The translations under genes and the position numbers were made by a program. This document shows, piece by piece, positions 24,793 to 64,000 of a stretch of 64,000 bases of DNA. This DNA is from Coptis chinensis. Its lineage: Eukaryota > Streptophyta > Magnoliopsida > Ranunculales > Ranunculaceae. The notes under the pieces were generated by a model. The model did no database searches, was not told the origin of the DNA, and was given only the letters and a program-made list of their open reading frames with translations. The DNA lies in NCBI GenBank assembly GCA_015680905.1, contig JADFTS010000022.1:62001-126000 (forward strand), read 5' to 3'. The stretch's first letter is position 1. Every line of letters begins with the position of its first letter.

Positions 24793-24823
<31 letters not shown>

Positions 24824-35922: not shown

Positions 35923-36127
35923 TTTTTTTTTTATTATATACTCTTCGAATAAAAGCAAATGTTTGTTTGTTTTTTTTTTGTATTATACTCTTCGAGTAAA
36001 AGAATTTTTTTTTGTAGTATATACTCTTCGAATAATAAAATTGTTTTTTTTAGTATATACTCTTCGAATAAAAGAAAATGTTTTTTTTTGTTGTATATAC
36101 TCTTCTAATAAAAGAAAATGTTTTTTT

Positions 36128-37249: not shown

Positions 37250-37451
37250 TTTTTTATTATATACTCTTCGAATAAAAGCAAATGTTTGTTTGTTTTTTTT
37301 TTTGTATTATACTCTTCGAGTAAAAGATTTTTTTTTTTGTAGTATATACTCTTCGAATAATAAAATTGTTTTTTTTAGTATATACTCTTCGAATAAAAGA
37401 AAATGTTTTTTTTTGTTGTATATACTCTTCTAATAAAAGAAAATGTTTTTT

Positions 37452-37755
37452 TAAGAAGAAATTTTATTCATAATGATAACGAATTTTACAAATAATTAGG
37501 ACAAGCGTGCAACAAGCTGCGCCGCAAGTCCTTTCTGAATAACAAATCATATCCTTCTAAAAAAAAACTCGTTAGAACCAGCTACCATAACGTTATTGTC
37601 CAACTTTCTGAAGTCTCTTGAGGAGCTCAACAGATTGTAATTCCAAGAAATCAAAAGTGTCGAAACTAAACGGAATGAAACAAGGTTGGTTAGCCATACA
37701 AGTTTCCTCATGCTTCTTTATTTTCTCTGTCGCTGCTGTCTTATCTGTTTCTCCA
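37452..37755 (-). pseudogene. LINE 3' unit J, cut at the inversion junction
   Basis: Only the last about 300 bp of the unit (C-terminal EEACRANQHCFI-type coding text and 3' end) are present. At about 37755, in the middle of the coding text, the sequence changes abruptly to the AAGCACATGTCTCAATTTATG block of the satellite. Confidence 0.8.
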
Positions 37756-37809
37756 GACAAAAGCACATGTCTCAATTTATGTGCTTTCTCTTTCCTATTG
37801 TGTGATAAC

Positions 37810-38068
37810 ACGATGAGGCTTTTAGAGTTAACCAGCATTGTTTCATTGCATTCAGTTTGGACACTGTTGGTTTCTTGGCATAACAATCTGTTAAGCTCCT
37901 TAAGTGATTGCAGGTAGTTATGGACTACAACCTAATGACAGTTGTTTCTAACGAGTTTGTATTCAAGAGGATATGATTTGCAGTTCAGATAGGACTTGGG
38001 TCACAGCTTGTTGCACGTTTGTCTTAATTATTTGTAAAATTTGTAATCATTATAAATAAAATTTCCAC
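37810..38068 (+). pseudogene. First plus-strand LINE 3' fragment in the satellite (reference copy)
   Basis: Reads as the last about 75 codons of the LINE plus its 3' end: equivalents of ACRANQHCFI, FGFLEQQSVELLKRLQ and GSNEF are recognisable, followed by the CCTAATTATTTGTAAAA 3' end (with the shared leader CACGTTTGTC) and AAATTTCCACT. Together with unit J (37452-37755, minus) it forms an inverted pair about a centre near 37755. Later satellite units carry the same segment with more changes, so this copy is close to the ancestral state. Confidence 0.8.
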
Positions 38069-38629
38069 TAAAAAACAACAACAAAACCAACATTTTTTTT
38101 ATTCGAAGAGAATATACAACAAAAAAAAACATTTTCTTTTATTTGAAGAGTATATACTATAAATAAAAAAAATAAAAAAATAACAACAACAACAACAATA
38201 TTTTCATTTATTCGAAGAGTATATACTATTAAAATACCAAAAAAAAAAAAAAAAAAAAACATCATCATTTTCATTTTTTCGTAGATTATCCACTACAAAA
38301 ACAAAAAAAAAAATAAAAAAAATAAAACCCTATAAAAATAAGACAAATAAAAACTCACAAAAGCAAAGCTAACTGAACTTATTCTGCTCAAATACAGTCG
38401 CGTGCACTACTCTAAAAGCACCAAACAACTTCCATTATTGAAGTTTGCGCCATCAATTTAAAATATACGTGTTGGTCTAACTACCTTGTGAAACATTCTT
38501 GCATATGTTCTACCCCATTACAAAGTCACAATCTTCATCTAGGAAATCTGAAGTTAAAAAACCCATATTGAAAAACTTAAGTTTTCACGGACATACCACG
38601 TAAGAGTGTTCAGACAAAAGCACATGTCT

Positions 38630-38660
38630 CAATTTATGGGCTTTCTCTTTCCTATTATGT
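38630..38660. repeat. Conserved hairpin in the satellite unit (representative)
   Basis: AAAGCACATGTC, a short T-rich loop and ATGTGCTTTC (GTGGGCTTTC in this unit) form a stem-loop. It recurs in nearly every unit, e.g. about 39467, 41212, 42928, 47287, 52498 and 62990, and its stem is better conserved than its surroundings. Function unknown. Confidence 0.6.
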
Positions 38661-40808
38661 GATAACACGAGGAGGCTTTTAGAGTTAACCAACATTGTTT
38701 CATTCTGTTCAGTTTCGACACTGTTGGTTTCTTGGCACAATAATCTGTTAAGCTCCTTAAGTGATTGCAGATAGTTATGGATTACAACCTAATGACAGTT
38801 GGTTCTAACGAGTTTGTATTACGGAGGATAGGATTTGCAGTTCAGAAAGGACTTGCGTCACAGCTTGTTGCACGCTTGTCCTAATTATTTGTAAAACTTG
38901 TTATCATTATAAATAAAATTTCAATATAAAAACAACAACAAAACCAACATTTTCTTTTATTCGAAGAGAATATACTACAAAAAAAAAATTTTCTTTTATT
39001 TGAAGAGTATATACTATAAATAAAAAAAATAAAAAAATAACAACAACAACAACAACAATATTTTCTTTTATTCAAAAGTATATATACTAAAAAAAAAAAA
39101 AAAAAAACAACATCATCATTTTCTTTTTTTCGTAGATTATCCACTACAAAAAAAAAAAAAAAAAAAAAAATAAAACCCTATAAAAATAAGACAAATCAAA
39201 AACTCACAAAAGCAAAGCTAACTGAACTTATTCTGCTCAAATACAGTCGCGTGCACTACTCTAAATGCTCCAAACAACTTCCACTATTGAAGTTTGCGCC
39301 ATCAATTCAAAATATACATGTTGGTCTAACTACCTTGTAAAACATTCATCCATATGTTCTACCTCATTACAAAGTCACGATCTTCATCAAGGAAATCTAA
39401 AGTTAAAAATCCCATCTTGAAAAAATTAAGTTTTCACGCACATACCACGTAAGATTGTTCAGACAAAAGCACATGTCTTATTTTATGTGCTTTCTCTTTC
39501 CTATTGTGTGATAACACGAGGAGGCTTGTAGAGTTAACCATCATTGTTTCATTCTGTTCAGTTTCGACACTGTTGGTTTCTTGGCACAAAAATCTATTAA
39601 GCTCCTTAAGTGATTGCAGATAATTATGGACTACAACCTAATGACAGTTGGTTCTAACGAGTTTTTATTCAGGAGGATAGAATTTGCAGTTCAAAAAGGA
39701 CTTGCGTCACAGCTTGTTGCACGCTTGTCCTAATTATTTGTAAAACTTGTTATCATTATAAATAAAATTTCAATATAAAAACAACAACAAAACCAACATT
39801 TTTTTTTTATTCGAAGAGGATATACTACAAAAAAAAAACATTTTCTTTATTTGAAGTGTATATACTATAAATAAAAAAATAATAAAATAACAACAACAAC
39901 AACAACAATATTTTATTTTATTCGAAGAGTATATACTCAAAAAAAAAAGAAAAAAAAAAAAAAACAAAATCATTTTTTTTTTTTTCAGAGATTATCCACT
40001 ACAAAAAAAAAAAAAAAAAAAAAAAAAAACCCTATAAAAAAAATAAGAAAAATCAAAAACTCACAAAAGCAAAACTAACTCAACTTATTCTCGCTTCAAA
40101 TACAATAAGGCGTGCACTACTCTAAAAGCTCCAAACAACTTCCGTTATTGAAGTTTGCGCCATCAATTTAAAATATACGTGTTGGTCTAACTACCTTGTG
40201 AAACATTCTTGCATATGTTCTACCTCATTACAAAGTCACAATCTTCATCTAGGAAATCTGAAGTTAAAAACCCATATTGAAAAACTTAAGTTTTCACGCG
40301 ACATACCACGTAAGAGTGTTTCACAAAAAGCACATGTCTCAATTTATATGCTTTCTTTTCCTATTGTGTGATAACACGAGGAGGCTTTTAGAGTTAACCA
40401 AAGATTGTTTCATTCCGCTTCGCTTTTGACATTAATTTGGTTTTCTTGGCACAACAATCTGTTAAGCTCCTTAAGTGATTGCAGATAGTTATGGACTACA
40501 ACCTAATGACAATTGGTTCTAACGAAGTTTGTATTACGGAGGATAGGATTTGCAGTTCAGAAAGGACTTGCGTCACAGCTTGTTGCACGCTTGTCCTAAT
40601 TATTTGTAAAACTTGTTATCATTATAAATAAAATTTCAACTTAAAAAAAAAACAACAAAACCAACATTTTCTTTTTATTCAAGAGAATATACTACAAAAA
40701 AAACATTTTCTTTTTATTTGAAGAGTATATACTATAAATAAAAAAAAAAAAAAAAAACAACAACAACAACAACAACAACAATTTTTTTTTTTTATTCAAG
40801 AGTATATA

Positions 40809-40843
<35 letters not shown>

Positions 40844-41741
40844 ATCATTTTTTTTTTTTTTTTTTCAGAGATTATCCACTACAAAAAAAAAAAAAAAAAA
40901 AAAAAAAAAATAAAACCCTAAAAAAAAATAAGAAAAAATCAAAACTCACAAAAGCAAAAGCTAACTTAACTTTATTCTCGCTTCAAATACAGTCAAGGCA
41001 AGCACTACTCTAAATGCTCCAAACAACTTCCACTATTGAAGTTTGCCATCAATTCAAAATATACATGTTGGTCTAACTACCTTGTGAAACATTCATCTAT
41101 ATGTTCTACCTCATTACAAAGTCACGATCTTCATCAAGGAAATCTGAAGTTAAAAATCCCATCTTTAAAAAAATTAGTTTTCACGCACATACCACGAAGA
41201 GTGTTCGAAAAAAAGCACATGTCTTATTTTATGTGCTTTCTTTCCTATTGTTTGATAACACGAGGAGACTTGTAGAGTTAACCAACATTGTTTCATTCCG
41301 TTCAGTTTTGACACTGTTGGTTTCTTGGAACAACAATCTGTTAAGCTCCTTAAGTGATTGCAGATAGTTATGGACTACAACCTAATGACAAATTGGTTCT
41401 AACGAAGTTTGTATTCATTCGAGGATAGGATTTGCAGTCGAAAAGGACTTATGCCACACCTTTGTTGCACGCTTTGTCCTAATTATTTGTAAAATTTGTA
41501 ATCATTATAAATAAAATTTCAACTAAAAACAACAACAAAACAAATTTTTTTTTATTCAAGAGAATATACAAAAAAAAACATTTTCTTTTATTTTAAGAGT
41601 ATATACTATAAATAAAAAAAATAAAAAAATAACAACAACAACAACAACATTTTCTTTTATTCATTGAGTATTTACTAAAAAAAAAAAAAAAAAAAAAAAA
41701 AAAACAACATAATTTTATTTTTTTTCGTAGATTATCCACTA

Positions 41742-41775
<34 letters not shown>

Positions 41776-43412
41776 CTATAAAAATAAGATAAATTAAAAA
41801 CTCACAAAAGGAAAGCTAACTGAAGTTATTCTACTCCAATACAGTCGCGTGTACTACTCTAAAAGCTCCAAATAACTTCCACTATTGAAGTTTGCACCAT
41901 CAATTTAAAATATACGTGTTGGTCTAACTACCTTGTGAAACATTCTTGCATATGTTCTACCTCATTACAAAGTCACGATCTTCATCTAGGAAATCTGGGT
42001 TAAAACCCATATTGAAAAAATTAAGTTTTCACGGACATACCACGTAAGAGTGTTTGACAAAAAAGCACATGTCTCATTTTATGTGCTTTCTTTTCCTATT
42101 GTGTGATAACACGAGGAGGCTTTTAGAGTTAACCAGCATTGTTTCATTCCATTCAGTTTTGACACATCGCTGTTGGTTTCTTGGCACAACAATCTGTTAA
42201 GCTCCTTAAGTGATTGCAGATAGTTATGGACTACAACCTAATGACAAATTGGTTCTAACGAAGTTTGTATTAAGGAGGATAGGATTTGCGGTTCAGAAAG
42301 AACTTATAGCATACAGCTTTTTTTGCACGCTTGTCCTAATTATTTTGGTAAAACTTGTTATCATTATAAATAAAATTTCAACTTAAAACAACAACAAAAC
42401 CAACATTTTCTTTTATTCAAGAGAATATACTACAAAAAAAATTTTCTTTTATTTTGAAGAGTATATACTATAAATAAAAAAAAAAAAAAAAAACAACAAC
42501 AACAACAACAATATTTTTTTTTTATTCAAGAGTATATACTACAAAAAAAAAAAAAAAAAAAAAAAACATTTTTTTTTTTTTTTCAGATTATCCACTACAA
42601 AAAAAAAAAAAAAAAAAAAAAAATAAAAAAAAAAAACCCTATAAAAATAAGACAAATAAAAACTCACAAAAGCAAAGCTAACTAACTTACTTATTCTCGC
42701 TTCAAATACAACAAGGCACTAAACTAAAAGCTCCAAACAACTTCCACTATTGAAGTTTGTGCCATCAATTCAAAATATACATGTTGGTATAACTACCTTG
42801 TGAAACATTCTTCCATATGTTCTACCTCATTACAAAGTCACGATCTTCATCTAGGAAATCTGAAGTTAAAAATCCATCTTGAAAAATTAAATTTTCACGC
42901 ACATACCACGTAAAGAGTGTTCGCACAAAAAGCACATGTCTTATTTTATGTGCTTTCTTTTTTCTATTGTGTGATAACACGAGGAGGCTTTTAGAGTTAA
43001 CCAAAGATTGTTTCATTCCGCTTCAGCCGACATCATTGGTTTCTTTCGCACAACAACTGTAAGCTCCTTAAGTGATTGCAGATAGTTATGGACTACAACC
43101 TAATGACAAATTGGTTCTAACGAGTTTGTATTAAGGAGGATAGGATTTGTAGTTCTCGAAAGGACTTCCGGCCACAAATTTTGTTGCACGCTTTGTCCTA
43201 ATTATTTGTAAAACTTGTTATCATTATAAATAAAATTTCAACTTAAAAACAACAACAAAACCAACATTTTCTTTTATTCGAAGAGAATATACTACAAAAA
43301 AAAAAAATTTTATTTTATTTGAAGAGTATATACTATAAATAAAAAAAAAAAAAAAAAAAAACAACAACAACAACAACAACAACAATATTTTCTTTTATTC
43401 GAAGAGTATATA

Positions 43413-43449
<37 letters not shown>

Positions 43450-44287
43450 AACATCATCATTTTCTTTTTTTTTTTCAGAGATTATCCACTACAAAAAAAA
43501 AAAAAAAAAAAAATAAAACCCTATAAAAAATAAGACAAATAAAAACTCACAAAAAGCAAAGCTAACTCAACTTATTCTCGCTTCAAATACAAAAAGGCAC
43601 TACTCTAAAAAGCTCCAAACAACTTCCACTATTGAAGTTTGCATCATCAATTCAAAATATACATGTTGGTCTAACTACCTTGTGAAACATTCTTCCATAT
43701 GTTCTACCTCATTACAAAGTCACGATCTTCATCTAGGAAATCTGAAGTTAAAAACCCATCTTGAAAAAATTAAGTTTTCACGCACATACCACGAAAGAGT
43801 GTTCCCGTTAAAAAAAAGCACATGTCTTATTTTATGTGCTTTTCTTTCCTATTGTGTGATAACACGAGGAGGCTTTAGAGTTAACCAAAGATTGTTTCAT
43901 TCCGCTCAGTTTCACATCGTTGGTTCTTTGGCACAACAACTGCTTAAGCTCCTTAAGTGATTGCAGATAGTTATGGACTACAACCTAATGACAGCTTGGT
44001 TCTAACGAAGTTTGTATTCAGGAGGATAGGATTTGCAGTTCGAAAAGGACTTAAGGCTTATACAAATTTTGTTGCACGCTTGTCCTAATTATTTGTAAAA
44101 CTTGTTATCATTATAAATAAAATTTCAACTAAAAAACAACAACAAAACCAACATTTTTTTTTATTCGAAGAGAATATACAACAAAAAAAAACATTTTCTT
44201 TTATTTGAAGAGTATATACTATAAATAAAAAAAATAAAAAAATAACAACAACAACAACAACAACATTTTCTTTTATTATTCAAAAAA

Positions 44288-44327
<40 letters not shown>

Positions 44328-44354
44328 TTTATTTTTTTCGTATATTATCCACTA

Positions 44355-44389
<35 letters not shown>

Positions 44390-45155
44390 ATAAAAAAATA
44401 AGACAAATAAAAACTCACAAAAGCAAAGCTAACTGAACTTATTCTCGCTTCAAATACAAATAAGGCACACTACTCTAAAAAAAGCTCCAAACAACTTCCA
44501 CTATTGAAGTTTGCGCCATCAATTTAAAATATATATGTTGGTCTAACTACCTTGTGAAACATTCTTCCATATGTTCTACCTCATTACAAAGTCACGATCT
44601 TCATCTAGGAATCTGAAGTTAAAAACCCATCTTGAAAAAATTAAGTTTTCACGCACATACCACGTAAGAGTGTTCGAAAAAAAAGCACATGTCTCATTTT
44701 ATGTGCTTTCTTTTCCTATTGGTGATAACACGAGGAGGCTTTTAGAGTTAACCAAAGATTGTTTCATTCCGCTCAGGCATTAATCGTTGGTTTCTTGGCA
44801 CAACAACTGCTAAGCTCCTTAAGTGATTGCAGATAGTTATGGACTACAACCTAATGACAATTGGTTCTAACGAAGTTTGTATTATTAGAGGATAGGATTT
44901 GCAGTTCTCGAAAGGACTTTAAGGCCACACAAATTGTTGCACGCTTGTCCTAATTATTTGTAAAACTTGTTATCATTATAAATAAAATTTCAACTTAAAA
45001 AAACAACAACAAAACCAACATTTTTTTTTATTCAAGAGAATATACTACAAAAAAACATTTTTTTTTTATTTGAAGAGTATATACTATAAATAAAAAAAAA
45101 AAAAAAAAAAACAACAACAACAACAACAATTTTTTTTATTTCAAGAGTATATATA

Positions 45156-45197
<42 letters not shown>

Positions 45198-46027
45198 TTT
45201 TTTTTTTTTTTTTAGATTATCCACTACAAAAAAAAAAAAAAAAAAAAAAAAATAAACCCTATAAAAAAAAGAAAATCAAAAACTCACAAAAAGCAAAGCT
45301 AACTTAACTTATTCTCGCTTCAAATACAAATACAAAGCAAGTAACTACTCTAAAAGCTCCAAACAACTTCCACTATTGAAGTTTGCCCATCAATTCAAAA
45401 TATACATGTTGGTCTAACTACCTTGTGAAACATTCATCCATATGTTCTACCTCATTACAAAGTCAATGATCTTCATCTAGGAAATCTGGTTAAAAATCCA
45501 TCTTGAAAAAATTAAGTTTTCACGCACATACCACGTAAAGAGTGTTCGCACAAAAAAGCACATGTCTTATTTTATGTGCTTTCTTTCCTATTGTGTGATA
45601 ACACGAGGAGGAGGCTTTTAGAGTTAACCAAATTGTTTCATTCCGCTCAGCTTTGACACATCGTTGGTTTTTGGCACAACAACTGTTAAGCTCCTTAAGT
45701 GATTGCAGATAGTTATGGACTACAACCTAATGACAAATTGGTTCTAACGAAGTTTGTATTCGTGAGGATAGGATTTGCAGCTCGAAAGGACTTCATAGGC
45801 CACAAATTTGTTGCACGCTTGTCCTAATTATTTGTAAAATTTGTTATCATTATAAATAAAATTTCAACTTAAAAACAACAACAAAACCAACATTTTATTT
45901 TATTCGAAGAGAATATACAAAAAAAAAACATTTTCTTTTATTTGAAGAGTATATACTATAAATAAAAAAAAAAAAAAACAAAAACAACAACAACAACAAC
46001 AACAACTTTTTTTTATTCAATATAGTA

Positions 46028-46069
<42 letters not shown>

Positions 46070-46093
46070 TTTTTTTTTTTAGATTATCCACTA

Positions 46094-46133
<40 letters not shown>

Positions 46134-46901
46134 AAAATAAGACAAATAAAAACTCACAAAAAGCAAAGCTAACTGACTTATTCTCGCTTCAAATACAAAT
46201 AAGGCACTACTCTAAAAGCTCCAAACAACTTCCACTATTGAAGTTTGCCATCAATTCAAAATATACATGTTGGTCTAACTACCTTGTGAAACATTCTTCC
46301 ATATGTTCTACCTCATTACAAAGTCACGATCTTCATCTAGGAAATCAAGTTAAAAACCCATCTTGAAAAAAATTAAGTTTTCACGACATACCACGTAAGA
46401 GTGTTCGACAAAAAAGCACATGTCTTATTTTATGTGCTTTCTTTCCTATTGTGTGATAACACGAGGAGGCTTTTTAGAGTTAACCAAAGATTGTTTCATT
46501 CCGCTCAGCCGGACACTCGTTGGTTTCTTTTGGCACAACAACTGTTAAGCTCCTTAAGTGATTGCAGATAGTTATGGACTACAACCTAATGACAAATTTG
46601 GTTCTAACGAAGTTTGTATTAAGGAGGATAGGATTTGCAGCTCGAAAAGGACTTAAGGCCACAAATTTTGTTGCACGCTTTGTCCTAATTATTTGTAAAA
46701 CTTGTTATCATTATAAATAAAATTTCAACTAAAAAAACAACAACAAAACCAACATTTTTTTTTTATTCAAGAGAATATACTAAAAAAAAAAAACATTTTC
46801 TTTTTATTTGAAGAGTATATACTATAAAAAAAAAAAAAAAAAAAAAAAAAAACAACAACAACAACAACAACAACATTTTTTTTTATTCAAGAGTATATAT
46901 A

Positions 46902-46936
<35 letters not shown>

Positions 46937-49900
46937 TTTTTTTTTTTAGATTATCCACTACAAAAAAAAAAAAAATAAATAAAAAAAAAAATTAAAAAAA
47001 TAAAATAAGAAAAAAAAACTCACAAAAGCAAAGCTAACTCAACTTATTCTCGCTTCAAATACAAATAAGGCACTACTCTAAAAGCTCCAAAACAACTTCC
47101 ACTATTGAAGTTTGCTCCATCAATTCAAAATATACATGTTGGTCTAACTACCTTGTGAAACATTCTTCCATATGTTCTACCTCATTACAAAGTCACGATC
47201 TTCATCTAGGAAATCTGGGTTAAAAAAACCCATCTTGAAAAATTAAGTTTTCACGCACATACCACGTGAAGAGTGTTTTAGACAAAAAAGCACATGTCTT
47301 ATTTTATGTGCTTTCTTTTTCCTATTGTGTGATAACACGAGGAGGCTTTTAGAGTTAACCAAAGATTGTTTCATTCCGCTCAGCTTTTTGACAACTGCTT
47401 GTTTTTTTGGCACAAACAACTGTTAAGCTCCTTAAGTGATTGCAGATAGTTATGGACTACAACCTAATGACAGTTGGTTCTAACGAAGTTTGTATTATTC
47501 GGAGGATAGGATTTGTAGCTCGAAGGACTTATACACACAAATTTTGTTGCACGCTTGTCCTAATTATTTGTAAAACTTGTTATCATTATAAATAAAATTT
47601 CAACTTAAAAACAACAACAAAACCAACATTTTTTTTATTCAAGAGAATATACTACAAAAAAAAAAAAAAATTTTTCTTTATTTTTTAGAGTATATACTAT
47701 AAATAAAAAAAAAAAAAAAAAAACAACAACAACAACAACAACAATATTTTCTTTTATTCAAGAGTATATACTAAAAAAAAAAAAAAAAAAAAAACAAAAA
47801 AAATCATTTTTTTTTTTTTCAGAGATTATCCACTACAAAAAAAAAAAAAAAAAAAAAAAAAATAAAAATATAAAAATAAAAAAAAAAAATAAAAACTCAC
47901 AAAAGCAAAGCTAACTGAACTTATTCTCGCTTCAAAATACAAATAAGGCACTACTACTAAAAAAGCTCCAAACAACTTCCACTATTGAAGTTTGCTCACC
48001 ATCAATTCAAAATATACATGTTGGTCTAACTACCTTGTGAAACATTCTTCCATATGTTCTACCTCATTACAAAGGCACGATCTTCATCAAGGAAATCTGA
48101 AGTTAAAAAACCCATCTTGAAAAAAATAAGTTTTCACGCACATACCACGTAGAGAGTGTTCGCACAAAAGCACATGTCTTATTTTATGTGCTTTCTTTTC
48201 CTATTGGTGATAACACGAGGAGGCTTTTGTAGAGTTAACCAAAGATTGTTTCATTCCGCTTCAGTTTCAACATTGGTTTTTTTGGCACAACAACTGTTAA
48301 GCTCCTTAAGTGATTGCAGATAGTTATGGACTACAACCTAATGACAAATTGGTTCTAACGAAGTTTGTATTCGGAGGATAGATTTGCAGCTTCAGAAAAG
48401 GACTTATGCCACAAATTGTTGCACGCTTGTCCTAATTATTTGTAAAACTTGTTATCATTATAAATAAAATTTCAACTTAAAAAAAACAAAAAACCAACAT
48501 TTTCTTTTATTCAAGAGAATATACAACAAAAAACATTTTCTTTTTTTGAAGAGTATATACTATAAATAAAAAAAAAAAAAAAAACAACAACAACAACAAT
48601 TTTTTCAAAGAATTTTTTTCAAAAGAGTATATAAAAAAAAAAAAAAAAAAAAATTTTTTTTTTTTTTCATTTATCCACTACAAAAAAAAAAAAAAAAAAA
48701 AAAAATAAAAAAAAAAAAAAAAATAAAAATAAGACAAAATAAAAACTCACAAAAGCAAAAGCTAACTCAACTTATTCTCGCTTCAAATACAAATACAAGC
48801 TGCACTACTACTAAAAAGCTCCAAACAACTTCCACTATCAAGTTTGCGCCATCAATTCAAAATATACATGTTGGTCTAACTACCTTGTGAAACATTCTTC
48901 CATATGTTCTACCTCATTACAAAGTCAATGATCTTCATCTAGGAAATCTGAAGTTAAAAAACCCATCTTGAAAAAATTAAGTTTTCACGCACATACCATA
49001 CCACGAAGAGTGTTCGCACAAAAGCACATGTCTTATTTTATGTGCTTTCTTTCCTATCAGTGATGATAACACGAGGAGGCTTTTAGAGTTAACCAAAGAT
49101 TGTTTCATTCCGCTCAGCTTTGACATTAATCGGTTTCTTCTTTTGGCACAACAACTGCTAAGCTCCTTAAGTGATTGCAGATAGTTATGGACTACAACCT
49201 AATGACAAATGGTTCTAACGAAGTTTGTATTACTTTGAGGATAGGATTTTGCGCTCGAAAGGACTTTAAGGCCACACAAATTTGTTGCACGCTTTGTCCT
49301 AATTATTTTTAAAAAACTTGTTATCATTATAAATAAAATTTCAACTTAAAACAACAACAAAAAACCAACATTTTCTTTTATTCAAGAGAATATACTACAA
49401 AAAAAAACATTTTCTTTTATTTGAAGAGTATATATATAAATAAAAAAAAAAAAAAAAAAAAAAACAACAACAACAAATTTTTTTTTTTTTATTCAAAAGT
49501 ATATACTAAAAAAAAAAAAAAAAAAAAAAAATCATTTTTTTTTTTTTTCAGATTATCCACTACAAAAACAAAAAAAAAAAAAAAAAAATAAAACCCTATA
49601 AAAAAAAAACAAAAAAAAAAAACACAAAAGCAAAGCTAACTCAACTTATTCTCGCTTCAAATACAACAAGGCACTACTCTAAAAGCTCCAAACAACTTCC
49701 ACTATTGAAGTTTGCGCCATCAATTCAAAATATACATGTTGGTCTAACTACCTTGTGAAACATTCTTCCATATGTTCTACCTCATTACAAAGTCATGATC
49801 TTCATCTAGGAAATCTGAAGTTAAAAAAACCCATCTTGAAAAAAATTAAGTTTTCACGCACATACCACGTAAGAAGAGTGTTCGCACAAAAGCACATGTC

Positions 49901-50369
49901 TTATTTTATGTGCTTTCTTTTCCTATTGTGTGATAACACGAGGAGGCTTTTAGAGTTAACCAAAGATTGTTTCATTCCGCTCAGCCGCCATTAATCATTG
50001 TTGGTTTTCTTTTGGCACAACAACTGTTAAGCTCCTTAAGTGATTGCAGATAGTTATGGACTACAACCTAATGACAAATTGGTTCTAACGAAGTTTGTAT
50101 TCGTGGAGGATAGATTTGCAGCTCAGAAAGACTTGGCGCCACCTTTTTTTGTTGCACGCTTTGTCCTAATTATTTGTAAAATTTGTTAATCATTATAAAT
50201 AAAATTTCCAACTTAAAAAAAACAACAAAACCAACATTTTTTTTTTTCAAGAGAATATAAACAAAAAAAAAAAATTTTCTTTTTATTTTGAAGAGTATAT
50301 ACTATAAATAAAAAAAAAAAAAAAAAAACAACAAACAACAAACAACAACTTTTTATTCAAGAGTATATA

Positions 50370-50420
<51 letters not shown>

Positions 50421-52109: not shown

Positions 52110-52143
<34 letters not shown>

Positions 52144-52163
52144 TTTTTTTCAATTATCCACTA

Positions 52164-52200
<37 letters not shown>

Positions 52201-52981
52201 AAAAAAAAAACCTAAAAAAAATAAAAAATCACAAAAGCAAAGCTAACTCAAACTTATTCTCGCTTCAAATACAAACCAAAAGCAAGCACTACTAAAAGCT
52301 CCAAACAACTTCCACTATTGAAGTTTGCACCATCAATTCAAAATATACATGTTGGTCTAACTACCTTGTGAAACATTCTTCCATATGTTCTACCTCATTA
52401 CAAAGTCACGATCTTCATCTAGGAAATCTGAAGTTAAAAAACCCATCTTGAAAAAATTAAGTTTTCACGCACATACCACGTAAGAGTGTTCAAACAAAAG
52501 CACATGTCTTATTTTATGTGCTTTCTCTTTCCTATTGTGTGATAACACGAGGAGGCTTTTAGAGTTAACCAAAGATTGTTTCATTCCGCTCAGCTTTGAC
52601 ACACCGCTTGGTTTCTTGGCACAACAACTGTAAAGCTCCTTAAGTGATTGCAGATAGTTATGGACTACAACCTAATGACAAATTGGTTCTAACGAAGTTT
52701 GTATTCGTGAGGATAGGATTTGTGCAGTCAGAAAGGACTTATAGGACTTACAAATTTTTGTTGCACGCTTTGTCCTAATTATTTGTAAAATTTGTTATCA
52801 TTATAAATAAAATTTCCACTTAAAAAACAACAACAAAACCAACATTTTTTTTTATTCAAGAGAATATACAAAAAAAAAATTTTTTCTTTATTTGAAGAGT
52901 ATATACTATAAATAAAAAAAAAAAAAAAAAAAAACAACAACAACAACAACAACATTTTTTTTTATTCAAGAGTATATACTA

Positions 52982-53018
<37 letters not shown>

Positions 53019-53042
53019 TTTTTTTTTCGAGATTATCCACCA

Positions 53043-53079
<37 letters not shown>

Positions 53080-53839
53080 AAAATAAAAACAAATAAAAAA
53101 AACACAAAAGCAAAAGCTAATCAACTTATTCTCGCTTCAAATACAAAAGCAACACTACTACTAAAAAGCTCCAAACAACTTCCACTATTGAAGTTTGCTG
53201 CCATCAATTCAAAATATACATGTTGGTCTAACTACCTTGTGAAACATTCTTCCATATGTTCTACCTCATTACAAAGTCACGATCTTCATCTAGGAAATCA
53301 AGTTAAAAAAAAACCCATCTTGAAAAAATTAAGTTTTCACGACATACCACGAAGAGTTTCAGAAAAAGCACATGTCTTATTTTATGTGCTTTCTTTTCCT
53401 ATTGTGTGATAACACGAGGAGGCTTTTAGAGTTAACCAAAGATTGTTTCATTCCGCTCAGGCCGACAATCGTTGGTTTCTTGGCACAACAACTGTTAAGC
53501 TCCTTAAGTGATTGCAGATAGTTATGGACTACAACCTAAATGACAAATTGGTTCTAACGAAGTTTGTATTCGGAGGATAGATTTGCAGTAGCTCGTAAAA
53601 AGACTTAAGGCACAAAAAATTGTTGCACGCTTGTCCTAATTATTTGTAAAATTTGTTAATCATTATAAATAAAATTTCCACTTAAAAACAACAAAAAACC
53701 AACATTTTTTTTATTCAAGAGAATATACAACAAAAAAAACATTTTCTTTTATTTTGAAGAGTATATACTATAAATAAAAAAAAAAAAAAAAAAAAACAAC
53801 AACAACAACAACAACATTTTTTTTTATCAAGAGTATATA

Positions 53840-53876
<37 letters not shown>

Positions 53877-54705
53877 AATCATTTTTTTTTTTTTTCAGAT
53901 TATCCACTAAAAAAAAAAAAAAAAAAAAAAAAAAAATAAAACCCTAAAAAATAAGAAAATCAAAAACTCACAAAAGCAAAGCTAATCAACTTATTCTCGC
54001 TTCAAATACAAGGCACACTACTCTAAAAAAGCTCCAAACAACTTCCACTATTGAAGTTTGCCATCATCAATTCAAAATATACATGTTGGTCTAACTACCT
54101 TGTGAAACATTCTTCCATATGTTCTACCTCATTACAAAGTCAATGATCTTCATCTAGGAAATCTGGGTTAAAACCCATCTTGAAAAAATTAAGTTTTCAC
54201 GCACATACCACGAAGAGTGTTCGCACAAAAGCACATGTCTTATTTTATGTGCTTTTTTTCTATTGTGTGATAACACGAGGAGGCTTTTGTAGAGTTAACC
54301 AAAGATTGTTTCATTCCGCTCAGCCGACACATCGCTTTGGTTTCTTGGCACAAACAACTGCTAAGCTCCTTAAGTGATTGCAGATAGTTATGGACTACAA
54401 CCTAATGACAAATGGTTCTAACGAAGTTTGTATTCGGAGGATAGGATTTGCAGCTCGAAAAGGACTTATATCACAAAATTGTTGCACGCTTTGTCCTAAT
54501 TATTTGTAAAATTTGTTAATCATTATAAATAAAATTTCAACTTAAAAAACAACAACAAAAAACCAACATTTTTTTTATTCAAGAGAATATACTAACAAAA
54601 AAAAATTTTTTTTTTATTTGAAGAGTATATACTATAAATAAAAAAAAAAAAAAAAAAAACAACAACAACAACAACAACATTTTTTTTATTCAAGAGTATA
54701 TACTA

Positions 54706-54750
<45 letters not shown>

Positions 54751-55573
54751 TTTTTTTTTTTTTCATTATCCATCCACAAAACAAAAAAAAAAAAAAAAAA
54801 TAAAACCCTATAAAAATAAGACAAATCAAAACTCACAAAAGCAAAGCTAAACTGAACTTATTCTCGCTTCAAATACAAATAAAGGCACTACTCTAAAAGC
54901 TCCAAACAACTTCCACTATTGAAGTTTGCACCATCAATTCAAAATATACATGTTGGTCTAACTACCTTGTGAAACATTCTTCATCCATATGTTCTACCTC
55001 ATTACAAAGTCACGATCTTCATCTAGGAAATCTGGTTAAAAAAAACCCATCTTGAAAAAATTAAGTTTTCACGCACATACCACGTAAGAGTGTTCGCAAA
55101 AAGCACATGTCTTATTTTATGTGCTTTCTTTCCTATTGTGTGATAACACGAGGAGGCTTTTAGAGTTAACCAAAGATTGTTTCATTCCGCTCAGCTCAAA
55201 TCATTGGTTTTTTTGGCACAACAACTGCTAAGCTCCTTAAGTGATTGCAGATAGTTATGGACTACAACCTAATGACAAATTGTTCTAAACGAGTTTTGTA
55301 TTCGTGAGGATAGGATTTGCAGCTCGAAAAGGACTTGGCCACAAAATTTTGTTGCACGCTTGTCCTAATTATTTGTAAAATTTGTAATCATTATAAATAA
55401 AATTTCCAACTAAAAAAAACAACAAAAAAACCAACATTTTATTTTATTCAAGAGAATATACAACAAAAAAAAAATTTTCTTTTATTTGAAGAGTATATAC
55501 TATAAATAAAAAAAAAAAAAAAAAACAACAACAACAAACAACAACAACATTTTCTTTTATTCAAGAGTATATA

Positions 55574-55606
<33 letters not shown>

Positions 55607-56458
55607 ATTTTTTTTTTTTAAACAATTATCCATTTTTTTTTTTCAAAAAAAATCCACTAAAAAAAAAAAAAAAAAAATAAAAAATAAAACCCTATAAAAA
55701 AGAGAAAATAAAAACTCACAAAAGCAAAGCTAACTCAACTTATTCTCGCTTCAAATACAACAAGGCACTACTCTAAAAGCTCCAAACAACTTCCACTATT
55801 GAAGTTTTGCGCCATCAATTCAAAATATACATGTTGGGTCTAACTACCTTGTGAAACATTCTTCCATATGTTCTACCTCATTACAAAGTCACGATCTTCA
55901 TCTAGGAAATCTGGGTTAAAAATCCCATCTTGAAAAAAATAAGTTTTCACGACATACCACGAAGAAGAGTGTTCGAAAAAAAGCACATGTCTTATTTTAT
56001 GTGCTTTCTTTTCCTATTGTGTGATAAACACGAGGAGGCTTTTTAGAGTTAACCAAAGATTGTTTCATTCCGCTCAGCCGACAATCGCTTGTTTTCTTTT
56101 GGCACAACAACTGTTAAGCTCCTTAAGTGATTGCAGATAGTTATGGACTACAACCTAATGACAAATTTGGTTCTAACGAAGTTTGTATTCGTGGAGGATA
56201 GGATTTGCAGCTCGAAAAAAGGACTTAGGCCACAAAATTTTGTTGCGCTTGTCCTAATTATTTTTTTGTAAATTTGTAATCATTATAAATAAAATTTCCA
56301 CTTAAAAAACAACAAAAAAAACATTTTTTTTATTCAAGAGAATATACAACAAAAAAACATTTTCTTTTATTTGAAGAGTATATACTATAAATAAAAAAAA
56401 AAAAAAAAAAAAACAACAACAACAACAACAACAACAACTTTTTTTTCAAGAGTATATA

Positions 56459-56493
<35 letters not shown>

Positions 56494-57328
56494 TTTTTTC
56501 ATTTTTTTTTTTTTTTTTGAGATTATCCACTACAAAAAAAAAAAAAAAAAAAAATAAAACCCTATAAAAATAAGACAAATCAAAAACTCACAAAAAAAGC
56601 AAAGCTAACTCAACTTATTCTCGCTTCAAATACAAAAACAAAGGCACTACTCTAAAAGCTCCAAACAACTTCCACTATTGAAGTTTGCCATCAATTTAAA
56701 AATATACATGTTGGTCTAACTACCTTGTGAAACATTCTTCCATATGTTCTACCTCATTACAAAGTCACGATCTTCATCTAGGAAATCTGGGTTAAAAAAA
56801 CCCATCTTGAAAAAATTAAGTTTTCACGCACATACCACGTAAGAGTGTTCGCAAAAAAAGCACATGTCTTATTTTATGTGCTTTCTTTCCTATTGTGATA
56901 AACACGAGGAGGCTTTTAGAGTTAACCAAAGATTGTTTCATTCCGCTCAGTTTTGACAATCGCTGGTTTCTTGGCACAACAACTGTTAAGCTCCTTAAGT
57001 GATTGCAGATAGTTATGGACTACAACCTAATGACAATTGGTTCTAACGAAGTTTGTATTCGTGAGGATAGGATTTGCAGCTCAGAAAGGACTTATGGCCA
57101 CAAATTTGTTGCACGCTTTGTCCTAATTATTTGTAAAATTTGTAATCATTATAAATAAAATTTCCACTAAAAAAACAACAAAACCAACATTTTGTTTTAT
57201 TCAAGAGAATATACAAAAAAAAAACATTTTTTTTTTATTTGAAGAGTATATACTATAAATAAAAAAAAAAAAAAAATAAAAAAAACAACAACAACAACAA
57301 CATTTTTTTTATTCAAGAGTATATACTA

Positions 57329-57361
<33 letters not shown>

Positions 57362-58159
57362 AACATCATTTTTTTTTTTTCAGATTATCCACTACAAAAA
57401 AAAAAAAAAAAAAAAAAAAAAAATAAAACCCTATAAAAATAAGACAAATAAAAAAACTCACAAAAAAGCAAAGCTAACTCAACTTATTCTCGCTCAAAAT
57501 ACAACAAGGCACTACTCTAAAAGCTCCAAACAACTTCCACTATTGAAGTTTGCATCCATCAATTTAAAATATACATGTTGGTCTAACTACCTTGTGAAAC
57601 ATTCTTCCATATGTTCTACCTCATTACAAAGTCACGATCTTCATCTAGGAAATCTGGGTTAAAAAAAAACCCATCTTGAAAAAAAAAATAAGTTTTCACG
57701 CACATACCACGTAAGAGTGTTCGCAAAAAAGCACATGTCTTATTTTATGTGCTTTCTTTTTCTATTGTGTGATAACACGAGGAGGCTTTTTTAGAGTTAA
57801 CCAAAGATTGTTTCATTCCGCTCAGCCGACACACTGGTTTCTTTCTTGGCAACAACTGCTAAGCTCCTTAAGTGATTGCAGATAGTTATGGACTACAACC
57901 TAATGACAAATACTTGGTTCTAACGAAGTTTGTATTCGTGAGGATAGGATTTGCAGCTCAAAAGGACTTTAGGCCACAAATTTGTTGTTGCACGCTTGTC
58001 CTAATTATTTGTAAAATTTGTAATCATTATAAATAAAATTTCCACTTAAAAACAACAACAAAACCAACATTTTGTTTTATTCGAAGAGAATATACAACAA
58101 AAAAAAAAATTTTCTTTTATTTGAAGAGTATATACTATAAATAAAAAAAAAAAAAAAAA

Positions 58160-58191
<32 letters not shown>

Positions 58192-58217
58192 TTTATTTTA
58201 TTCAAGAGTATATACTA

Positions 58218-58258
<41 letters not shown>

Positions 58259-59142
58259 TTTTTTTTTTTAGATTATCCACTACAAAAAAAAAAAAAAAAA
58301 AAAAAAAAAACTATAAAAATAAAAAAAAAATAAAAATCAAAAAAAAAGCAAAGCTAACTCAACTTATTCTCGCTTCAAATACAAATACAAGCACTACTAC
58401 TAAAAAGCTCCAAACAACTTCCACTATTGAAGTTTTGCCATCAATTCAAAATATACATGTTGGTCTAACTACCTTGTGAAACATTCATCCATATGTTCTA
58501 CCTCATTACAAAGTCACGATCTTCATCTAGGGAAATCTCAAGTTAAAAATCCCATCTTGAAAAAATAAGTTTTCACGCATATACCACGTAAGAGTGTCAT
58601 TAAAAAAGCACATGTCTTATTTTATGTGCTTTCTTTTCCTATTGTGTGATAACACGAGGAGGCTTGTAGAGTTAACCAAAGATTGTTTCATTCCGCTCGC
58701 TTTTTCGAATCGTTGGTTTTTGGCACAACAACTGTTAAGCTCCTTAAGTGATTGCAGATAGTTATGGACTACAACCTAATGACAACTTGGTTCTAACGAA
58801 GTTTGTATTCGTGAGGATAGGATTTGCAGCTCGTAAAAGGACTTATACACAAATTTTTTGTTGCACGCTTTGTCCTAATTATTTGTAAAATTTGTAATCA
58901 TTATAAATAAAATTTCCACTTAAAAACAACAACAAAAAACCAACATTTTATTTTATTCAAGAGAATATACAACAAAAAAACATTTTTTTTTATTTGAAGA
59001 GTATATACTATAAATAAAAAAAAAAAAAAAAAAAACAAAAACAAAAACAACAACAACAACAATTTATTTATATTCAAAATAAATAAAACAAAAAAAAAAA
59101 AAAAAAAAAATCATTTTTTTTTTTTTCGTAGATTATCCACTA

Positions 59143-59188
<46 letters not shown>

Positions 59189-59939
59189 AGACAAATCAAA
59201 AAAACACAAAAAGCAAAGCTAAACTTAACTTATTCTCGCTTCAAATACAATAAGGCACTACTCTAAAAGCTCCAAACAACTTCCACTATTGAAGTTTGCC
59301 CATCAATTCAAAATATATATGTTGGGTCTAACTACCTTGTGAAACATTCTTCCATATGTTCTACCTCATTACAAAGTCAATGATCTTCATCATCTAGAAA
59401 ATCTGGGTTAAAAATCCCATCTTGAAAAAAATTAAGTTTTCACGCACATACCACGAAGAGAGTGTTTCGCACAAAAGCACATGTCTTATTTTATGTGCTT
59501 TCTTTCCTATCAGGTGATAACACGAGGAGGCTTTTAGAGTTAACCAAAGATTGTTTCATTCCGCTCAGCCACAATCGTTGGTTTCTTGGCACAACAACTG
59601 TTAAGCTCCTTAAGTGATTGCAGATAGTTATGGACTACAACCTAATGACAAATTGGTTCTAACGAAGTTTGTATTCGGAGGAGGATAGATTTGGTAGCTC
59701 GAAAAGGACTTGGGCACAAATTTGTTGCACGCTTGTCCTAATTATTTGTAAAATTTGTAATCATTATAAATAAAATTTCAACTTAAAAAACAACAACAAA
59801 ACCAACATTTTGTTTTATTCAAGAGAATATACAACAAAAAAAAAACATTATTTTTTTTGTATATATAAATAAATAAAAAAAAAAAAAAAAAAAAACAACA
59901 ACAACAACAACAATTTCTTTTATTCAAGAGTATATACTA

Positions 59940-59973
<34 letters not shown>

Positions 59974-60802
59974 AATTTTTTTTTTTTTTAGATTATCCAC
60001 TACAAAAAAAAAAAAAAAAAAAAAAAAAACTATAAAAATAAGACAAATCAAAAACTCACAAAAAAAAGCTAAACTCAACTTATTCTCTTCAAATACAACA
60101 AGGCACTACTCTAAAAAAGCCAAACAACTTCCACTATTGAAGTTTGCCATCAATTTAAAAAATATACATGTTGGTCTAACTACCTTGTGAAAACATTCTT
60201 CCATATGTTCTACCTCATTACAAAGTCACGATCTTCATCTAGGAAATCTGGGTTAAAAAAATCCCATCTTGAAAAAAATTAAGTTTTCACGCACATACCA
60301 CGAAGAGTGTTTCGCATAAAAAAGCACATGTCTTATTTTATGTGCTTTTTTTCCTATCCTATGTGATAACACGAGGAGGCTTTAGAGTTAACCAAAGATT
60401 GTTTCATTCCGCTCAGCCGAACATTAATCGCGGTTTTCTTGGCACAAACAACTGCTAAGCTCCTTAAGTGATTGCAGATAGTTATGGACTACAACCTAAT
60501 GACAAATTGGTTCTAACGAAGTTTGTATTCGAGGATAGGATTTGCAGCTCAGAAAAGGACTTTATACACAAACCTTTTTTGCACGCTTTGTCCTAATTAT
60601 TTGTAAAATTTGTAATCATTATAAATAAAATTTCCAACTTAAAAACAACAACAAAACCAACATTTTGTTTTATTCAAGAGAATATACAACAAAAAAACAT
60701 TTTCTTTTATTTGAAGAGTATATACTATAAATAAAAAAAAAAAAAAAAAAAAAAAACAACAACAACAAAAACAACAACATTTTTTTTATTCAAGAGTATA
60801 TA

Positions 60803-60848
<46 letters not shown>

Positions 60849-61691
60849 TTTTTTTTTTCAGATTATCCACTACAAAAAAAAAAAAAAAAAAAAAAAATAA
60901 AACCTATAAAAAAAATAGACAAATCAAAAAAACTCAAAAAAGCAAAGCTAACTCAAACTTATTCTCGCTTCAAATACAAATAAGGCACTACTCTAAAAGC
61001 TCCAAACAACTTCCACTATTGAAGTTTGCCATCAATTTAAAATATACATGTTGGTCTAACTACCTTGTGAAACATTCTTCCATATGTTCTACCTCATTAC
61101 AAAAGTCAATGATCTTCATCTAGGAAATCTGGGTTAAAAAACCCATCTTGAAAAAATTAAGTTTTCACGCACATACCACGAAGAAGAGTGTTCGTATAAA
61201 AAAAGCATGTCTTATTTTATGTGCTTTCTTTTCCTATTGTGGTGATAACACGAGGAGGCTTTTAGAGTTAACCAAAGATTGTTTCATTCCATTCGCTTTC
61301 GGCACATCACCGGTTTTTTTGGCAACAACTGCTAAGCTCCTTAAGTGATTGCAGATAGTTATGGACTACAACCTAATGACAAATTGGTTCTAACGAAGTT
61401 TGTATTCGGAGGATAGGATTTGCAGCTCGTAAAAAGACTTGCGGCCACAAAATGTTGTCAGACGCTTGTCCTAATTATTTGTAAAATTTGTAATCATTAT
61501 AAATAAAAAATTTCCAACTTAAAAAACAACAACAAAACCAACATTTTTTTTATTTCAAGAAATATACAACAAAAAAAAAAAAATTTTTTTTTATTTGAAG
61601 AGTATATACTATAAATAAAAAAAAAAAAAAAAAAAAACAACAACAACAACAACAACAACAACATTTTCTTTTATTCAAGAGTATATATATA

Positions 61692-61728
<37 letters not shown>

Positions 61729-62573
61729 TTTTTTTTTTTTCAGAGATTATCCACTACAAAAAAAAAAAAAAAAAAAAAAAAAAATAAAACCCTATAAAAA
61801 TAAGACAAATCAAAAACTCACAAAAGCAAAGCTAACTCAACTTATTCTCGCTTCAAATACAAATACAAGCAAGCACTACTCTAAAAGCTCCAAACAACTT
61901 CCACTATTGAAGTTTGCATCCATCAATTTAAAATATACATGTTGGTCTAACTACCTTGTGAAACATTCTTCCATATGTTCTACCTCATTACAAAGTCACG
62001 ATCTTCATCTAGGAAATCTGGTTAAAAAATCCATCTTGAAAAAATAAAGTTTTCACGACACATACCACGTGAAGAGTGTTCGCACAAAAGCACATGTCTT
62101 ATTTTATGTGCTTTCTTTTTTCTATTGTGTGATAACACGAGGAGGCTTTTAGAGTTAACCAAAGATTGTTTCATTCCGCTCAGCCACATCATTGTTGGTT
62201 TTTGGCACAACAATCTGTTAAGCTCCTTAAGTGATTGCAGATAGTTATGGACTACAACCTAATGACAAATTGGTTCTAACGAAGTTGTATTTCGGAGGAT
62301 ATAGGATTTGCAGCTCAGAAAAGACTTGGCCACAAAAAATTTGTTGCACGCTTGTCCTAATTATTTGTAAAATTTGTAATCATTATAAATAAAATTTCCA
62401 ACTTAAAAAAACAACAACAAAAAACCAACATTTTTTTTTTATTCAAGAGAATATACAACAAAAAAAAATTTTTCTTTTATTTTGAAGAGTATATACTATA
62501 AATAAAAAAAAAAAAAAAAAAAAAAACAACAACAACAACAACAACATTTTCTTTTATTCAAGAGTATATACTA

Positions 62574-62606
<33 letters not shown>

Positions 62607-63452
62607 AAAAAACATTTTTTTTTTTTTTGAGATTATCCACTACAAAAAAAAAAAAAAAAAAAAAAAAAAATAAAACCCTATAAAAATAAGACAAAATAAA
62701 AAAATCAAAACACAAAAGCAAAGCTAACTCAACTTATTCTCGCTTCAAATACAAATAGGCACTACTACTAAAAAAGCTCCAAACAACTTCCACTATTGAA
62801 GTTTGCGCCATCAATTCAAAATATACATGTTGGTCTAACTACCTTGTGAAACATTCATCCCCATATGTTCTACCTCATTACAAAGTCAATGATCTTCATC
62901 TAGGAAATCTGAAGTTAAAAATCCCATCTTGAAAAAAAATAAGTTTTCACGACATACCACGTAAGAGTGTTCGCACAAAAAAGCACATGTCTTATTTTAT
63001 GTGCTTTCTTTTCCTATTGTGTGATAACACGAGGAGGCTTTTAGAGTTAACCAAAGATTGTTTCATTCCGCTCAGCCACAATCGTTGGTTTCTTTGGCAC
63101 AACAACTGCTAAGCTCCTTAAGTGATTGCAGATAGTTATGGACTACAACCTAATGACAAATTGGTTCTAACGAAGTTTGTATTCGGAGGATAGGATTTGC
63201 AGCTCGAAAGGACTTTAAGGCACACAAAATTTTTGTTGCACGCTTTGTCCTAATTATTTGTAAAATTTGTAATCATTATAAATAAAATTTCCAACTAAAA
63301 AACAACAACAAAACCAACATTTTTTTTATTCAAGAGAATATACAACAAAAAAAAACATTTCTTTTATTTGAAGAGTATATACTACTATAAATAAAAAAAA
63401 AAAAAAAAAAACAACAACAACAACAACAAACAACATTTTTTTATTCAAAAAA

Positions 63453-63483
<31 letters not shown>

Positions 63484-64000
63484 CAAAATCATTTTTTTTT
63501 TTCAGATTATTATCCAAAACAAAAAAAAAAAAAAAAAAAAAAAATAAAACCCTATAAAAATAAGACAAATCAAAACTCACAAAAAAAAGCTAACTCAACT
63601 TATTCTCGCTTCAAATACAAATACAAATAAGGCACTACTCTAAAAGCTCCAAACAACTTCCACTATTGAAGTTTGCCATCAATTCAAAATATACATGTTG
63701 GTCTAACTACCTTGTGAAACATTCTTCCATATGTTCTACCTCATTACAAAGTCAATGATCTTCATCTAGGAAATCTGAAGTTAAAAATCCCATCTTGAAA
63801 AAATTAAGTTTTCACGCACATACCACGTAAGAGTTCGTGACAAAAGCACATGTCTTATTTTATTTATTTGCTTTCTTTTCCTATTGTGTGATAACACGAG
63901 GAGGCTTTTAGAGTTAACCAAAGATTGTTTCATTCCGCTCTCGGCCGACACATCATTGGTTTCTTTTGACAACAACTGCTAAGCTCCTTAAGTGATTGCA

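Follow-up and report, generated by a model that had tools for sequence, protein, structure and literature searches.

A composite satellite with a LINE 3′ end and an A-rich minisatellite in Coptis chinensis

An 870-bp satellite of Coptis chinensis carries the 3′ end of a LINE, fused to unrelated DNA and to a short A-rich minisatellite, and lies head-to-head against an array of LINE copies, not in line with it. The LINE tail of the satellite apparently does not come from this adjacent array. We consider it reasonably probable that the satellite and the LINE arrays both arose from LINE copies that landed repeatedly in the A-runs of the minisatellite, followed by amplification through unequal exchange.

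Results

The window, a stretch of 64,000 nucleotides on scaffold C13, contains the following features; reference positions are those of a dispersed LINE copy, L029.

22,424–28,009, minus strand: five truncated LINE units with a common 5′ breakpoint near reference 2451
28,086–32,112, minus strand: near-full-length LINE copy that falls in a different clade on the same side of the LINE tree as the satellite, with a cut motif at its 5′ flank
32,151–37,754, minus strand: five further truncated LINE units with motif arrays between them
37,458–37,754, minus strand: the last LINE unit, cut at the inverted junction and facing the satellite
37,755/37,756: inverted junction, minus-strand LINE unit against plus-strand satellite
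37,756–64,000, plus strand: 870-bp composite satellite array, continuing to C13:142,202 (self-comparison and LINE alignment)
38,360–38,664, plus strand: non-LINE part (about 305 bp) of one complete unit, 90% identical to a 1.52-kb repeat on C1 and unlike the LINE
38,666–38,922, plus strand: LINE 3′ end of the same unit, reference 3297 to 3553
38,938–39,170, plus strand: minisatellite of the same unit, an A-run with a 29-bp motif, earlier described as a 40-bp tail repeat

The original prediction of a tandem array of about 30 units reaching the end of the window agrees with our count of 49 LINE pieces between C13:99,756 and 142,202, 31 of which start within the window. Self-comparison gave a unit length of about 0.85–0.89 kb; the 49 LINE-bearing units are arranged head-to-tail and are about 85–92% identical to one chosen unit. 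Each holds some 260 bp of LINE 3′ end, close to the 250 bp proposed, followed by A-rich motif repeats, and this LINE part is 72–83% identical to a dispersed LINE copy. The rest had been described as about 390 bp of unrelated DNA: it measures about 305 bp, and it is indeed unrelated, as comparison with five LINE copies showed no similarity at E ≤ 1e-3; on this ground we reject the reading that it is an unreported part of the LINE. Since the monomer joins a true LINE 3′ end to unrelated DNA, the satellite has incorporated the end of a retrotransposon. A search of Rfam returned no match, and five short open reading frames of the window gave only Pfam matches below the curated cut-offs. Outside the window, three inverted satellite units at C13:22.9–25.3 kb adjoin a 1325-bp satellite.

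The predicted head-to-tail LINE units at 22.4–37.75 kb are present and lie on the minus strand; with the satellite on the plus strand, the junction is inverted. Nine of the ten truncated units share a 5′ breakpoint at or a few bases from reference 2451, the tenth being cut at the junction, so that they look like duplicates; the unit at 26,190–26,753 is shortened on its 3′ side as well. The alignment of the near-full-length copy ends at 31,491, and its 5′ limit near 32,112 was judged by eye. Beyond the satellite, a second LINE array of the other orientation lies outside the window at C13:142.2–148.5 kb, and its LINE pieces start at an A-run or within about 20 bp of one. The 5′ ends of the LINE pieces differ: the left array breaks at reference 2451, most of the right array at 2792, a longer relative of the satellite at 2995 and the satellite itself at 3297, and a further breakpoint is at 3118.

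The LINE is dispersed, with 150 scored matches bearing a reverse transcriptase (RT) over C1–C9 and C13. Its RT matches RVT_1 (E = 2.4e-12) and, among PDB profiles, R2 (1.8e-7) far better than L1 (0.038); on these matches it is predicted to be of the non-LTR type and closer to R2 than to L1. An RLE-type element (R2 group and relatives) would lack an APE domain ahead of the RT and carry a C-terminal CCHC motif and a PD-(D/E)xK endonuclease. A 262-aa piece upstream of the RT in one copy matched no Pfam family at E ≤ 1, and the 588-aa piece of a second copy, comprising the upstream part and the RT, matched RVT_1 only. By eye, the C-terminal region contains the motif-like sequences CxxC..GDHAAHC and RPxDV..VDxTG; profile searches gave no match to them, and a structure model of this domain was unusable (pLDDT 29). 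A PDB search with the single sequence of a 228-aa piece returned no hit. The element may be of the restriction-endonuclease (RLE) type, which would be unexpected in a plant.

In a tree of LINE 3′ ends (261 columns, 64 of 97 rows, including 19 of 52 satellite units), the satellite forms one clade with L054, the repeat of about 1.52 kb on C1 (support 100/97), within which it groups next to one of L054's two rows (95/69). The truncated neighbours are separated from it by the deepest split of the tree, and the AU test rejects joining the satellite with the left array (p-AU 1e-7). The near-full-length neighbour falls on the satellite's side of this split, in another clade, so the LINE copies around the satellite are not all remote from it. 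Its rejection as a partner is weaker (p-AU 0.001 alone, 0.007 with L054), and these tests were made after inspection of the tree. In the right array, the final unit has the 5′ breakpoint of its neighbours yet groups with other copies, which points to conversion or exchange. Similarity to the LINE along the satellite, with one short LINE piece dropped, averages 79.2% in the first five units, 74.8% in the middle and 78.5% in the last five. The earlier view that the first units are closest to the LINE is thus true relative to the middle ones, but the last units match it about as well, and the resemblance peaks at both ends.

The 1.52-kb repeat, found on C1 and on unplaced contigs, is the closest relative of the satellite among the 40 of 2034 candidates scored. 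The 870-bp unit matches an L054 unit minus about 700 bp and is a deleted form of it. The longer relative also occupies 23–86 kb of contig C15, which starts with telomere repeats (canonical TTTAGGG). Weak T-rich matches beside that telomere do not represent the motif, of which the stretch concerned (L057) contains no copy. The non-LINE part or the motif occurs in both orientations on C1, C2, C7 and C9, and unit types alternate in one stretch of C1 (L053). For the non-LINE part, 40 of 1529 candidates were scored; with 40 scored in each search, copy numbers are lower bounds. By assembly position the satellite appears to be subterminal, many of its copies being on unplaced contigs.

The minisatellite consists of an A-run and about 29–36 bp ending in GAAGAGTATATACTAC. 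Its exact 40-mers number 93, all of them listed; 32 of the 35 placed on chromosomes are no more than 4 Mb from an end, and the reversed-pattern control gave 0. The exact 18-mers number 587, and from the 100 of them listed we estimate that a motif cluster spans about 0.1 Mb per chromosome. The motif had been taken for the LINE's own tail. We read 23 of the 150 scored copies, 22 of them from the top 23 similarity rows (the top row is the window's own copy) and L029 from a lower rank; in 21 the motif is missing after the 3′ end, which rules it out as a general LINE tail. Judged by eye, a poly(A) or A-rich tail terminates 19 of these 21 copies and is lacking in L043 and L044. The two motif-bearing copies are at C4:54 kb (judged by eye) and in the C1:1.78-Mb cluster. 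On C4, one motif separates a near-full-length LINE from the 1325-type satellite that comes after it. A LINE-free repeat on C1 (L052) holds 17 motifs, two of them reversed.

In four C13 arrays where LINE and motif do occur together, their strands agree for 28/28, 29/29, 137/137 and 9/9 motifs, against 0 in the control with the motif reversed; these counts do not represent independent events because the copies are in tandem. In the places read, the A-run of the motif and the poly(A) of the LINE share a strand. The LINE pieces that lie in or beside the motif belong to both sides of the tree and show at least four 5′ breakpoints, and in the simple arrays read each unit consists of other DNA plus one motif array. 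In the truncated C13 arrays the motif follows most LINE 3′ ends directly or shortly afterwards; the near-full-length copy at 28–32 kb has it on the 5′ side only, and at L048 clear motifs are about 250 bp distant. Counted by eye, motif clusters contain two of the 17 RT-bearing copies listed for C1 and two of the 18 listed for C2, and each pair may go back to a single insertion that was duplicated. When up to four errors are allowed, only a single motif can be recognised in the C13 1325-bp array, so the kinship of that array rests on weaker similarity and on L052. The locus C2:86.05 Mb has a single motif, embedded in poly(T) within an inverted A/T-rich repeat.

Discussion

In the origin that we favour, the A/T runs of the minisatellite would serve as priming sites for target-primed reverse transcription, which would also fix the orientation of the LINE. 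With each insertion, the motif array would be divided into a pair of direct repeats, and unequal sister exchange between these could then multiply the segment they bracket in tandem. On this view the satellite and the LINE arrays would have arisen independently through one process acting at the same chromosome end, and neither would be the parent of the other. No target-site duplication is demonstrable, because the target is itself repeated. More tentatively, the poly(A)-rich subterminal minisatellite might be a satellite factory, whose A-runs draw in LINE insertions of one orientation and from which exchange makes several composite satellites. If the motif is both landing site and bracket, the first steps of satellite formation could be tested by comparing accessions.

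The main competitor, which we think rather unlikely, sees the motif as an exchange junction where LINE pieces and other DNA were joined by ectopic recombination or gene conversion instead of insertion. It would account for a motif common to otherwise unrelated repeats, for the alternating unit types on C1 and for the misplaced right-hand unit; insertion, however, would be expected to leave LINE pieces starting within about 20 bp of an A-run, as in the right array, and a nearly complete LINE ending at the motif, as on C4. A young LINE subfamily that had the motif array as its 3′ tail and later spread at chromosome ends would fit the position of the motif at or just past most LINE 3′ ends in the truncated C13 arrays. 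We regard this as improbable, as the motif also occurs in the LINE-free repeat and beside LINE copies from both sides of the tree, and the sampled dispersed relatives lack it.

A transposon array adjoining a satellite is not in itself evidence of descent. The birth of the satellite from the adjacent array, as originally predicted, drew on this adjacency and on the common LINE 3′ end and motif, and the somewhat greater LINE similarity of the first units and the near-full-length neighbour on the satellite's side of the tree are in its favour. Against it are the opposite orientation, the different 5′ breakpoints, the AU tests (p-AU 1e-7 for the truncated neighbours, 0.001 for the near-full-length copy), the about equal similarity of the last units and the longer relative elsewhere in the genome; on these data we therefore reject a parent–child relation, the least probable of all the readings. 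Hardly more credible is that the arrangement, above all the inverted junction, reflects misassembly of a small unplaced scaffold. Such repeats are difficult to assemble, and C13 is a piece of 675,000 bases, a round figure, but both orientations of the satellite's non-LINE part or of the motif are also found on C1, C2, C7 and C9, and the sequence relations do not depend on order.

Transposon ends within satellites are already known, and as in other transposon-derived composite satellites the units here are similar and head-to-tail, with the transposon segment dispersed elsewhere. In the double-insertion model of McGurk and Barbash from 2018, repeats that bracket a segment reportedly allow its tandem amplification; our proposal likewise invokes bracketing repeats, but the bracket is a minisatellite array and not two transposon copies. 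Zepp copies are known to insert each into the poly(A) tail left by a previous one, and in clusters of this type the LINEs replace the telomere repeats. Zepp of Chlorella and Coccomyxa forms nested LINE clusters, earlier reported at chromosome termini (PMC3446292). The clustering of LINE copies near a chromosome end is similar in Coptis, whereas most copies here look like duplicates of a few truncated founders with minisatellite between them; the breakpoint near 2451 in nine of ten left-array units differs from insertion into a preceding poly(A) tail. In Lathyrus, satellites grow from short internal tandem repeats of Ogre elements (PMC7004042); there too a retroelement supplies the monomers, but our tandem motif lies outside the sampled LINE copies. 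The common cetacean satellite has a monomer that contains the 3′ end of L1, and other LINE-derived satellites exist (PMC9659126). The Coptis monomer shares the LINE 3′ terminal part and differs in adding about 305 bp of other DNA and a minisatellite common to several repeats. Less usual among such systems is the sharing of one short motif, near chromosome ends, by a LINE-free repeat and several LINE captures that look independent.

Results

The satellite and the LINE arrays beside it

The assembly comprises 935.6 Mb in 116 contigs, C1 to C9 being 85–125 Mb each; of our contig, C13 (JADFTS010000022.1; 675,000 bases), positions 1–250,000 were obtained in full, the window occupying bases 62,001–126,000. 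From window position 37,756 to C13:142,202, plus-strand units of ~870 bp follow each other in tandem and contain 49 LINE pieces, 31 of which start within the window, which confirms the predicted satellite with a LINE 3′ end. In one unit, ~305 bp of non-LINE DNA precedes a LINE 3′ end of ~260 bp, and A-runs carrying a 29-bp motif make up another ~280 bp. Compared with five LINE copies, the non-LINE part showed no similarity and thus does not appear to be an unreported stretch of the LINE, an objection that the original prediction had itself raised. LINE units lie on both sides:

Window 22.4–37.75 kb, minus strand: left array, ten truncated LINE units
Window 28.1–32.1 kb: near-full-length LINE copy amid the left-array units
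C13:142.2–148.5 kb, plus strand: right array, a second LINE array past the satellite, six units

Given these strands, the left array and the satellite are head-to-head. Nine of the ten truncated left-array units have their 5′ breakpoint at position 2451 of the reference copy L029 or a few bases from it (one of them is also cut at the 3′ side), and the junction truncates the tenth. Right-array units start at 2792 (four), 2795 (one) and 2824 (the first). One unit there, L018 (C13:147,718–148,478), has the 5′ breakpoint of its neighbours, yet its 3′ end groups with other LINE copies.

The LINE (window 22,424–37,754; copies L029, L030 and L031) may be of the restriction-like-endonuclease (RLE) type, which we regard as a lead and not a result. 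Among solved structures its reverse transcriptase matched R2 best (profile E 1.8e-7, versus 0.038 for L1), and visual inspection of the C-terminus showed CCHC- and PD-xK-like motifs. In one copy, the 262 aa upstream had no Pfam match at E ≤ 1, hence no APE family was found there. Genome-wide, 150 RT-bearing matches were scored. In flowering plants, a LINE of the RLE type would be unexpected. Papers retrieved on the subject concern Utopia and oomycetes and plants, and a further set of literature titles named no such case; the abstract on Utopia lists Amoebozoa, SAR and Opisthokonta.

Descent of the satellite

In a tree of 64 LINE 3′ ends (261 columns), all 19 sampled satellite units formed one clade (100/98), joined by two units of L054, a repeat at C1:2.716 Mb (100/97). 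Nine left-array rows formed a separate clade (98/91) across a 100/99 split. Constraining the satellite to group with the left array cost 66 log-likelihood units (p-AU 1.0e-7); grouping it with the right array, last unit excluded, was equally costly and was also rejected. The near-full-length neighbour (28–32 kb) does lie on the same side of the split as the satellite, where it belongs to a clade that also contains L031, L032, L033, L038, L045 and L048 (99/93); this position counts in favour of an origin from the adjacent array. Joining it to the satellite nevertheless cost 44 units (p-AU 0.001), and to the satellite plus L054 18 units (p-AU 0.007), the weakest of these tests. By the tree and these tests, the claim that the satellite was born from the adjacent LINE array fails, and we consider such an origin highly improbable.

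The first units had been described as closest to the LINE. Their LINE pieces are indeed more similar to a dispersed LINE copy than those in the middle (79.2% for the first five, 74.8% for the middle), but the last five are about equal to the first (78.5%). Identity did not change steadily with position in the array (Spearman 0.09, p 0.55) and correlated with distance from the nearer array end (−0.66, p 2e-7). Weaker homogenisation at the array edges would produce such end-high identity; the right edge has no contact with the left array.

L054 is a ~1.52-kb repeat that begins with the same non-LINE DNA as the satellite (90% over 305 bp), after which come another ~400 bp of non-LINE DNA, a LINE piece that is longer (starting at 2995) and finally the motif. 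The LINE sequence runs further in L054 than in the satellite, for which reason we interpret the 870-bp unit as the deleted form, with ~700 bp missing. The extra segment has at least 41 matches (40 of 2034 candidates scored), including on C1, C18, C85, C64, C96 and C15, the last of which starts with telomere repeats.

A minisatellite that also occurs without the LINE

The motif had been taken for the LINE's own 40-bp tail repeat, a reading that does not hold for the LINE in general: the motif is absent after the 3′ end in 21 of 23 LINE copies examined, 19 of these 21 ending in poly(A) or an A-rich tail. The two copies with it lie at C4:54 kb and in a cluster at C1:1.78 Mb. On C4, a near-full-length LINE has one motif no more than ~20 bp past its end, and 1325-type satellite comes next. 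L052, a LINE-free stretch of C1 related to the 1325-bp satellite of C13:1–22.9 kb, holds 17 motifs (15 on one strand, two on the other); the C13 array itself has only one recognisable at ≤4 errors. That array (L009–L011, C13:1–22,913) stands at the contig start with units ~92–95% identical, and the C1 relative has well-preserved motif copies. Throughout the four LINE-bearing C13 arrays, motif strand equals LINE strand.

The exact 40-mer occurs 93 times (control search, 0). Of 35 occurrences on C1 to C9, 32 are no more than 4 Mb from an end, with the other three at C2:86.05, C6:92.05 and C8:88.46 Mb; C4 and C5 have none. At the C2 site (L055, 86,047,000–86,049,000), one motif sits in a poly(T) tract inside an inverted A/T-rich repeat, in which poly(T) links copies of a different short unit. 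The C6 match lies ~60 kb from an interstitial telomere-repeat match at 92.11 Mb, which may point to an earlier chromosome end or to a misjoin in the assembly. L053 (C1:1,752,900–1,757,300) is a ~1.97-kb higher-order repeat with two LINE pieces sharing the 5′ breakpoint 3118 in unlike flanks.

Discussion

We somewhat favour a formation in which LINEs would have inserted at the A/T runs of the motif and exchange between the flanking motif arrays would have given rise to the satellites. Since the T-rich strand would be able to prime on the LINE's poly(A), such insertion would fix the orientation of LINE and motif. The insert would, moreover, end up flanked on each side by a motif array, and such direct repeats could recombine to build a tandem array. 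The LINE-free 1.3-kb repeat would fit as well, provided that DNA other than a LINE can be bracketed in this way. Target-site duplications are unreadable where the target itself is repeated.

Three observations fit this model imperfectly: a right-array unit with mixed tree affinity, L048 with its clear motifs ~250 bp off, and the near-full-length copy with a motif on one side only. The motif may instead have served as an exchange junction rather than an insertion site, which we regard as an unlikely though serious alternative. Because the tree places the near-full-length neighbour on the same side as the satellite, our confidence in insertion followed by exchange is slightly lower, and that in the adjacent-array origin slightly higher, than at first; the exchange-junction alternative gained slightly as well.

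We are not aware of an earlier description of this minisatellite. Satellites with LINE 3′ ends have been published (review PMC9659126), as have satellites that arose from tandem repeats of retrotransposon origin (PMC7004042) and LINE clusters of the Zepp type (PMC3446292).
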